Part shown: positions 38,450 to 39,948 of the stretch, piece by piece
How the letters are laid out: the number at the start of each line of letters is the position of its first letter
Numbering within the stretch: position 1 is the first letter of the stretch
Assembly: GCF_000959525.1 (NCBI RefSeq)
Contig: NZ_CP009832.1
Location: 620,001-684,000 of the forward strand
Length of the DNA stretch: 64,000 bases
DNA from: Burkholderia multivorans ATCC BAA-247
GTDB lineage: Bacteria; Pseudomonadota; Gammaproteobacteria; Burkholderiales; Burkholderiaceae
Reading direction: 5' to 3'
Notes under the pieces: model-generated
Database searches by the model: none
Told to the model about the DNA's origin: nothing
Seen by the model: the letters and a program-made list of their open reading frames with translations, nothing else
Position numbers and translations under genes: made by a program

Positions 38450-38470
38450 GAAAAAGCCCGCTCGATGCGG
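38450..38470 (+). terminator. Left part of a bidirectional terminator split by the IS
   Basis: The A-run and first arm of a hairpin (AAAAAGCCCGC, then TCGAT, then GCGG) end exactly at the IS left edge. Removing the IS and one target copy restores AAAAAGCCCGC-TCGAT-GCGGGCTTTTT, which would have ended proB and the converging lipoprotein gene. The right part is at 39894-39915. Confidence 0.8.
38459..38470 (+). repeat. 12-bp target site duplication, left copy
   Basis: CGCTCGATGCGG immediately precedes the IS left inverted repeat and is repeated exactly at 39894-39905. Confidence 0.92.
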
Positions 38471-38479
38471 TAATGCCGT

Positions 38480-39820
38480 TCAGTTAAGGTTCTTTCTGAG
38501 GAACCGGACGGCATAACGAGCAGGACGGGACTTGACGGCCCGATCGCATTTGCGATCGGGCCGTTTTACATTGATGAGCAGCTTGAGGTGTTCGCGAAGT
38601 CGCTTGAGCACGGCGGGCAGCTTGGCGTAGGCAGGCGTGCGTGCAGCCCACATCATCTCGTGCTGGATGAGATGGAACGAGCGAACGAAGCTCAGTTCGG
38701 TCGGTTCGCACTTGGCCTCGAAGGCGGCGCAAGCCATTTCGCGGCGAATCAGGTTGTAAGCGATCAGCGCACCCCAGATCTCTTGGTAGATGCCGTCGAC
38801 GGTTCGGCTACGTAGAGTCAGTTCGCTACCGAGCATGGACTGCTTCAGTTCGCGATAGCTGGTCTCGATCTGCCAGCGCCGCTCGTAGCAAGCAACCAGA
38901 TCGGCCAACTTGAAGCGGCGCCGATCGGTCAATGACGTCAGTAGTACACGTTCCCGCCCCTGTGCATCTTGAATGCGCACTGCACGCGCCGTCCACCACT
39001 CCGGCAGATCGGGGCATTTCTGCCGAGCCTGAGGCGAGACGCGCATGCGCACCAATGCATCGTCCGGTTTGCCCGACAGTACCTCCCAACGCGTATTGGA
39101 CTTTGCCGGAATCAGGAAGTGGCGATTGCGTTCGCCCGAGCTCAGGCCGCACAGGATCTCGGCTGCCAGGAAGCCTTTGTCGAAGACCGTGAGCGAATGG
39201 TCGGGAATCTGCTCCAGCAGATTCTTGGCGTAGATCATCTCGTTGGTGTCGTAGCGGCCAAACGCGATGTTTGCTACCAGATGCGTCGGGATCGAGGTCA
39301 GCGTGACGGCCCGCACCTGCGGGTAGCTGGCCACCTTGCCGCTCGCGTAGCTTTGGGACCCGAAATGTTCCCGATTCGCGGCACTGTCCGGCGTGCGTAG
39401 CGTGGTGCCATCCATGGCCCACAAGCTAAGCCCTTTGAAGGCATGGCGCGCACCATCCTGCTTGCACCATGCCTGCGCGGTTTGCTCGAACAGCCAAGCT
39501 ATCGGGGCGTGGCCTAAGCGCTGCCGGGCCTGGGTGACGGCGCTCTTGCTGACGAACGTGGTCTCGTTGGGCAGCACCAGTTCCAGACTGTCCACCACTT
39601 CGCTGACTGACCAATGACGATAGATCGCCAGCGCGATCACCAGCCAGACCACCTGTTCAGCCGGCAAGCGACGGCGACGAATGCTCGCCGTGCCTGTCGC
39701 TTCGATGGCCTGTTCGATCCATGCATGGGGAAGATGCTCCGCCAACCGGCTCAGGTCGGTAGGTTCGGCATCGAGCATGAAGGTCAGGTGGTCGGTCAGC
39801 ATCGCGCCAAAAGTTAACAT
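38480..39820 (-). CDS. IS4-family transposase
   Basis: This 446-aa DDE transposase cuts and joins the IS ends. The first two acidic residues are in LWAMDGTTLRT and LTVFDKGFLAAEIL. The third is in the family signature Y-(2)-R-(3)-E-(6)-K, seen as YERRWQIETSYRELK. An N-terminal IS4-type domain (HLPHAWIEQAIEATG) precedes it. The frame is open to a TTG at 39859. I use the ATG at 39820; an ATG at 39802 is also possible. No frameshift is seen. The gene looks functional. Confidence 0.9.
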   Translation of the reverse strand: MLTFGAMLTDHLTFMLDAEPTDLSRLAEHLPHAWIEQAIEATGTASIRRRRLPAEQVVWLVIALAIYRHWSVSEVVDSLELVLPNETTFVSKSAVTQARQRLGHAPIAWLFEQTAQAWCKQDGARHAFKGLSLWAMDGTTLRTPDSAANREHFGSQSYASGKVASYPQVRAVTLTSIPTHLVANIAFGRYDTNEMIYAKNLLEQIPDHSLTVFDKGFLAAEILCGLSSGERNRHFLIPAKSNTRWEVLSGKPDDALVRMRVSPQARQKCPDLPEWWTARAVRIQDAQGRERVLLTSLTDRRRFKLADLVACYERRWQIETSYRELKQSMLGSELTLRSRTVDGIYQEIWGALIAYNLIRREMACAAFEAKCEPTELSFVRSFHLIQHEMMWAARTPAYAKLPAVLKRLREHLKLLINVKRPDRKCDRAVKSRPARYAVRFLRKNLN

Positions 39821-39850
39821 CTCAGCGCAGCGTTTACAACCACTCCTTCC

Positions 39851-39892
39851 CCAAAACAAAAATGCCGTTCAGTTGCTTAACTGAACGGCATT
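39851..39892 (-). terminator. Hairpin terminator made from the IS right end
   Basis: AATGCCGTTCAGTT (39861-39874) is an inverted second copy of the terminal repeat and pairs perfectly over 14 bp with 39879-39892 around a 4-base loop. Read on the minus strand, the hairpin is followed by TTTTTGTTTT, a good T-rich tail. It stands between outside transcription and the transposase start. Confidence 0.7.
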
Positions 39893-39893
39893 A

Positions 39894-39905
39894 CGCTCGA
39901 TGCGG
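39894..39905 (+). repeat. 12-bp target site duplication, right copy
   Basis: CGCTCGATGCGG directly follows the right inverted repeat, identical to 38459-38470. The following GCTTTTT is the displaced second half of the split terminator. Confidence 0.92.
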
Positions 39906-39948
39906 GCTTTTTGCCGAATGCCGCCGACACTGCCGGGGCCGCGTACGA

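Follow-up and report, generated by a model that had tools for sequence, protein, structure and literature searches.

We analysed a 64,000-nucleotide window of the Burkholderia multivorans ATCC BAA-247 genome (positions 620001-684000 of contig 3; genome size 6.32 Mb), in which an insertion sequence (IS) of the IS4 family separates two converging genes and divides the two-way intrinsic terminator between them. These genes are proB, encoding glutamate 5-kinase (37288-38406, plus strand; open reading frame (ORF) with TIGR01027, AA_kinase and PUA), and a CNP1-like lipoprotein gene (39949-40557, minus strand; ORF with PF08750). The element, delimited by its sequence, its ORF and family searches, spans 1423 bp (38471-39893) with its transposase on the minus strand. 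Read directly, its terminal inverted repeats, TAATGCCGTTCAGTTAAG, are 18 bp long and perfect (left, plus strand, 38471-38488; right, minus strand, 39876-39893), and a 12-bp target duplication, CGCTCGATGCGG, lies at both borders (38459-38470 and 39894-39905). Beyond it stand the outer arms of the split terminator, AAAAAGCC on the left (AAAAA plus GCC, 38451-38458) and GCTTTTT on the right (GC plus TTTTT, 39906-39912). Joined to one target copy, these arms restore the two-way terminator between proB and the CNP1-like gene, with the loop TCGAT (38462-38466). The duplication spans this loop plus 3 and 4 bp of the stem, and its centre falls 0.5 bp off the dyad. The original prediction, made from the sequence alone, had placed the element, its repeats and its duplication correctly to the base; the terminator it expected after removal of the IS is confirmed by the arms and one target copy, as is its claim of a target nearly symmetric about the loop.

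The sole gene of the element encodes an IS4-family transposase of 440 amino acids (38480-39802, minus strand), whose start was set as annotated in a 99.2% identical copy from a plasmid of B. multivorans, the closest named record found. Profile searches detected its domains PF13006 and PF01609 (Nterm_IS4 and DDE_Tnp_1), NF033592 (IS4 family transposase) scored 268.1 bits against a cut-off of 115, and the Y(2)R(3)E(6)K motif of the IS4 subgroup is present as YERRWQIETSYRELK. According to PMC2266710, this subgroup is characterised by a length of 1400-1650 bp, duplications of 10-13 bp and ends in -AATR, and the IS231 subgroup by CAT ends. The window element, with 1423 bp, a 12-bp duplication and TAATG ends, fits the former; membership in the IS231 subgroup was rejected, the ends being TAATG and not CAT. 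Judged by its sequence, it is an IS4-subgroup cut-and-paste element of known kind.

Relatives preserve the uninterrupted site. The end of proB was located in 65 of 65 genomes of the genus, and a sample of 30 loci comprised the window copy, 10 loci that the script could not delimit and 19 that it could. Inspection by eye found a full hairpin with A and T runs in 17 of these 19 (for example AAAAAGCCCGCGTGATGCGGGCTTTTT in L299), so that the empty site does carry the terminator that the original prediction supposed. The intact site of one relative folds at -12.8 kcal/mol as stem plus T-tract and at -16.8 kcal/mol with the A-tract added. A second, identical copy of the element in the same genome also splits a terminator (flanks AAAAACCCCGG... 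and ...CCGGGGTTTTTT), 39 bp from the stop of a neighbouring ORF that, from its sequence, we take to be metK. The genome holds only these two copies of the IS4 element, against eight IS256-family places above the cut used.

The terminal repeat, with at most one mismatch, occurs in 94 of 398 genomes in a family-wide scan. We also scanned named genomes for the exact repeat, blind to the flanks, which covered at least 120 stretches from Massilia, Herbaspirillum, Caballeronia, Paraburkholderia, Collimonas, Duganella, Janthinobacterium, Cupriavidus, Pseudomonas and others. In this blind scan, 90 of 126 distinct flanks carry an A-tract at -27 to -13 outside the IS ends and 6 of 126 carry a T-tract there, compared with A-tracts at 536 of 7080 random positions in those loci; further out in these flanks, at -45 to -31, 19 of 126 have one. 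No other feature of the flanks is as well conserved as the A-tract, with about 80% A at -17 and -18. Among 56 distinct two-ended elements with a duplication, its length is 12 bp in 44, 11 bp in 7, 10 bp in 3 and 13 bp in 2. The transposases of the compared copies, excluding L054, L105 and L167 with their short open frames, are 61.5%-99.1% identical to that of the window, the identical own-genome copy aside.

For site-by-site analysis we used 55 elements, comprising relatives and short derivatives, that retain both repeats, with no more than 4 mismatches in total, and an 8-15 bp duplication whose copies differ at 2 positions at most; the blind scan supplied 30 and searches using the window element or its repeat supplied 25, and the Escherichia coli K-12 copy, copies with differing flanks (such as L041 and L043) and the plasmid copies L284-L289 were left out. 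In 48 of these 55, no more than 1 bp separates the best hairpin dyad from the centre of the duplication. The two arms pair with each other more often than shuffled arms do on average at 1-6 bp beyond the duplication, and more often than in any of 500 shuffles at 2, 3 and 4 bp; within 12-bp duplications, pairs 1/12 and 2/11 surpass every shuffle and pairs 3/10 and 4/9 the mean, whereas pair 5/8 stays under the mean, which is what a 4-nt loop would give. A stem with an A-tract on its left and a T-tract on its right was found at 31 of 55 real sites, at none of 11,226 positions 45-150 bp away and at 2 of 17,700 random positions, and a stem with either tract at 40, 7 and 12, respectively; adjacent control positions overlap and hence are not independent. 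Where both A/T arms are present, a stem accompanies them in 31 of 35 real sites versus 2 of 108 control positions.

Insertions of other families in the genus served as a further control. The terminator signature was found at 0 of 39 IS3 and IS256 insertions when the rule was relaxed slightly, a change that brings the IS4 set to 32 of 55; here duplications down to 3 bp were accepted, so that borders may be a few bases off, and the dyad was allowed a slack of 2 bp. These insertions came from six genomes (IS256 from the window's own genome, G029 and G017; IS3 from G058, G064 and G043), with 39 of 40 usable after L422, which has no duplication, was dropped. As alternative control families, the window's own genome offered five PF00665 places, too few to use, and no PF13586 place. 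At the level of sequence, this comparison shows insertion centred on terminators beyond the local, random and other-IS controls, and targeting as such is well supported. The flanks of other copies thus display a clear hairpin preference, and the original claim survives this check. Among the plasmid copies, L286 and L289 lie in terminators by eye, and L284, L287 and L288 are ambiguous. In L285, a Burkholderia ambifaria plasmid, the IS (1501-2920) is flanked by halves of two different terminators and lacks a matching duplication, the arrangement that recombination between two copies would leave.

The IS4 of E. coli offers a distant comparison. No DNA match to the window element was found in E. 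coli genomes (distant mode, E 1e-5), and with a reference taken from K-12, IS4 matches occur in 2659 of 5426 genomes. Like the window element, IS4 has a similar length (1426 bp), the repeat TAATGCCGATCAGTTAAG at one end, a 12-bp duplication, the YREK motif and, by eye, a target framed by A/T arms and a hairpin plus T-run close to each end. In contrast, its transposase is 36.1% identical to that of the window, and its terminal-repeat hairpin stands at the transposase-3' end, whereas that of the window element stands at the 5' end. The same layout built from other sequences suggests that layout rather than sequence has been kept. We sampled 14 two-ended copies (two internally deleted) at 8 distinct sites, setting aside the one-ended remnant L283; by eye, five of the eight sites are terminators (beyond glgP, pdxK-crr, next to ymcF, bamD-raiA and adhE-tdk). 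E. coli IS4 reportedly follows an AAAN20TTT target rule; given these terminator sites and the A/T arms, the rule seems to describe the A- and T-tracts that terminators have. Strains differ in the orientation of IS4 at the adhE-tdk terminator (L280, L281, L282), and the two target copies in L282 have their loops in opposite orientation.

Hairpins with T-runs stand at both ends of the window element, facing inward. At the transposase-3' end, a terminator-like hairpin on the plus strand (38534-38565; 14 bp, -29.2 kcal/mol; folding and covariation) occupies element bases 64-95, antisense inside the 3' part of the transposase gene, and ends in TTTT (38564-38567), two T of which are paired in the fold. 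At the other end, the right repeat and its inverted copy form a predicted terminator on the minus strand (39861-39892; 14 bp, -20.7 kcal/mol; folding and consensus scan), followed by TTTGTTTT. Pairs of the transposase-3' end hairpin covary over 19 distinct ends (for example A-T in 11 and G-C in 8), in a fold made without the E. coli ends, as their inclusion misled. Each of the 16 full-length two-ended copies satisfies a hairpin-plus-T test at either end, although the test is lenient: 176 of 684 random stretches also satisfy it, and about 7% of elements would do so at two ends by chance. Among 39 short derivatives, 20 pass at both ends, 14 at one and 5 at neither, counts that are only suggestive because these were scanned over their whole length. 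Three 113-bp elements from another genome of the genus (L229, L231 and L232, 201-313 each) have the same terminal repeats and an interior that is mainly a two-way terminator (AAAAAGGCCGCTCCG...CGGAGCGGCCTTTTT in L231), and each is inserted in a host terminator.

The flanks retain terminator halves facing outward. The left hairpin (minus strand; target copy plus host T-tract) folds at -6.5 kcal/mol (z -2.2) and the right one (plus strand; target copy plus GC plus TTTTT) at -5.4 kcal/mol (z -1.4); the consensus scan calls the right one. The original prediction that neither half keeps a full stem therefore holds insofar as the halves are weakened, but they are not empty. The 55 elements have 110 flanks, whose outward hairpins reach a median of -5.4 kcal/mol; in 431 controls the median is -1.2 kcal/mol. 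Because the left terminal repeat contains the stop codon of the transposase (38480-38482), the transposase mRNA must end in the flank. The consensus scan called no minus-strand terminator between 37900 and the element, and the left half-terminator is the nearest terminator-like structure found beyond that stop.

We regard it as highly probable that the transposase picks a symmetric target, that the element lands mid-terminator, and that its own end hairpins together with the half-hairpins terminate transcription. The transposase would select a double-stranded target in which a 12-bp staggered cut falls on a GC-rich palindrome and is separated by 2-4 bp from an A-tract on one side and by 2-4 bp from a T-tract on the other, with recognition running through the symmetric A/T arms and the palindrome. 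Two-way intrinsic terminators would be the best fit to such a target, and the comparison of sites does place the element at the centre of intergenic terminator hairpins. Insertion splits the host terminator, and transcripts of the neighbours from either side would stop just inside the element, at the inward hairpins, so that its own predicted hairpins would replace the lost termination. The duplicated loop and inner stem leave a weak outward hairpin before the host T-tract on each side, and the transposase mRNA would end in the flank, with the left half-terminator as its nearest candidate stop; all four hairpins may act as terminators. Tentatively, for on this point we stand slightly short of even, IS4-subgroup elements may be self-insulating "terminator exchangers" that close all four transcription directions. 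With similar reserve, some short derivatives, such as the 113-bp L229, L231 and L232, could be regarded as little more than a mobile two-way terminator between repeats.

Several observations weigh against this account. The A-tract is missing in 36 of 126 flanks, and 14 of 55 sites have no strong stem under the rule used. Among the 19 delimited empty sites, the hairpin of L291 is less regular and L310 has the left half only. Of the eight E. coli sites, three do not coincide with a terminator (the K-12 site, yicI and an iron-sulphur protein gene) and two of these three lie inside genes, so the hairpin is not required by every IS4 member; by eye, A-rich and T-rich arms stand at about the same spacing at all three. 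The left-end hairpin has only four T and is not called by the consensus scan, nor is the left outward hairpin. Some pairs of the end hairpin fail to form in as many as 4 of 19 sequences, and the 16 full-length copies include close kin (two identical own-genome copies and two from one other genome).

Other explanations differ in what they take the target to be. Recognition of the arms alone seems insufficient, because a stem is found in 31 of 35 real two-armed sites versus 2 of 108 controls, and selection against non-terminator sites could contribute. That selection alone is responsible, with random insertion and survival only at harmless intergenic places such as terminators, is very improbable. 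Terminators are intergenic and the copies seen are natural survivors, but intergenic selection cannot set a register in which dyad and duplication centre differ by at most 1 bp in 48 of 55 elements, and we reject selection alone because it leaves this register unexplained. Moreover, none of the 11,226 positions 45-150 bp away and none of the 39 other-IS survivors in the genus qualify, and intragenic copies in E. coli still have, by eye, A/T arms at the same spacing.

We consider it unlikely, though less so, that the target is an extruded hairpin (cruciform) or the palindrome itself rather than the A/T arms, terminators being just the commonest hairpins. The site-by-site covariation across the dyad and the same excess of stems at two-armed sites speak for this, as do Pseudomonas short derivatives that adjoin GGGCTTGCCC-type hairpins without A-tracts (L139, L148, L190, L198, L211 and L213) and the entry of ISRm22 into repetitive extragenic palindromes (REPs) at the axis of palindromy (PMC1525189). 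It does not account for the E. coli intragenic sites, which have arms and no clear hairpin, nor for the A-tract being the best-conserved flank feature, with about 80% A at -17 and -18. Coupling to transcription, in which RNA polymerase pausing, R-loops or supercoiling at active terminators would draw the transpososome, is improbable: coupling alone would not fix the register around the dyad and would leave REP-like hairpins and coding sites with A/T arms unexplained, even though some sites lie downstream of presumed well-transcribed genes (proB, metK; E. coli bamD, adhE, glgP) and supercoiling between convergent genes has been discussed for REP-targeting ISs (PMC1525189).

Targeting of terminators or of symmetric sites has precedents among mobile elements. 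Group IIC introns insert next to intrinsic terminator hairpins and so resemble the window element in using intrinsic terminators as landing places; unlike it, they are retroelements and insert after the hairpin, not at the dyad. IS231 and IS186 have palindromic G/C targets, symmetric like that of the window element, and we know of no terminator link for either. The original prediction had likened the element to IS231, which reportedly prefers GGG(N5)CCC. The likeness holds for the symmetry of the target, but IS231 has different ends (CAT) and belongs to another subgroup, and its GGG...CCC order is opposite to the CCC...GGG found here; the parallel is weaker than claimed. According to PMC1525189, ISRm22 (IS4 family, subgroup IS4Sa) inserts at the axis of REP palindromes; it thus enters the axis of an extragenic palindrome like the window element, and differs from it in 6-bp repeats and in using one REP consensus rather than varied terminators. 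We rejected a REP-targeting class for the window element, its target being a terminator, likewise 31 of 55 related sites under the strict rule; among the related elements, REP-like hairpins adjoin only some Pseudomonas derivatives. Some Pseudomonas short elements (L131, L145, L148, L155, L190 and L213) carry the same terminal repeats around REP-like inverted pairs, and some of them have REP-like hairpins as insertion sites.

A 2008 paper (PMC2266710) describes spectacular insertion specificity in target arms for some IS4-subgroup elements, which share the subgroup and probably the target preference of the window element; the word "terminator" does not occur in its main text. Among the matches listed for the open-access literature, which leaves out most subscription papers, no report of terminator targeting by IS4-type elements was found, and the target habit and end design of this known kind of element seem not to have been linked until now. 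For the subgroup's target-arm specificity, strong but so far unexplained, this supplies a concrete meaning, and likewise for the AAAN20TTT rule said to govern IS4. Terminators emerge from our analysis as a safe-harbour target for a DDE transposon that occurs in many Burkholderiales and some Pseudomonas, and their targeting may explain how the element spreads without breaking genes. This supports the original suggestion that the choice of terminators spares genes, and the element goes further, with a register of about 1 bp and inward terminator-like hairpins at its ends. If these do replace the lost terminator, selection would act on the landing site and on the cargo. As a caution, mobile DNA can exchange terminators at the ends of core genes.

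Beyond the element, the consensus scan marked a minus-strand terminator-like hairpin with T7 at 40528-40551. It overlaps the start region of the CNP1-like gene and sits between this gene and an ORF at 40571-41218, which is presumably NUDIX-like.
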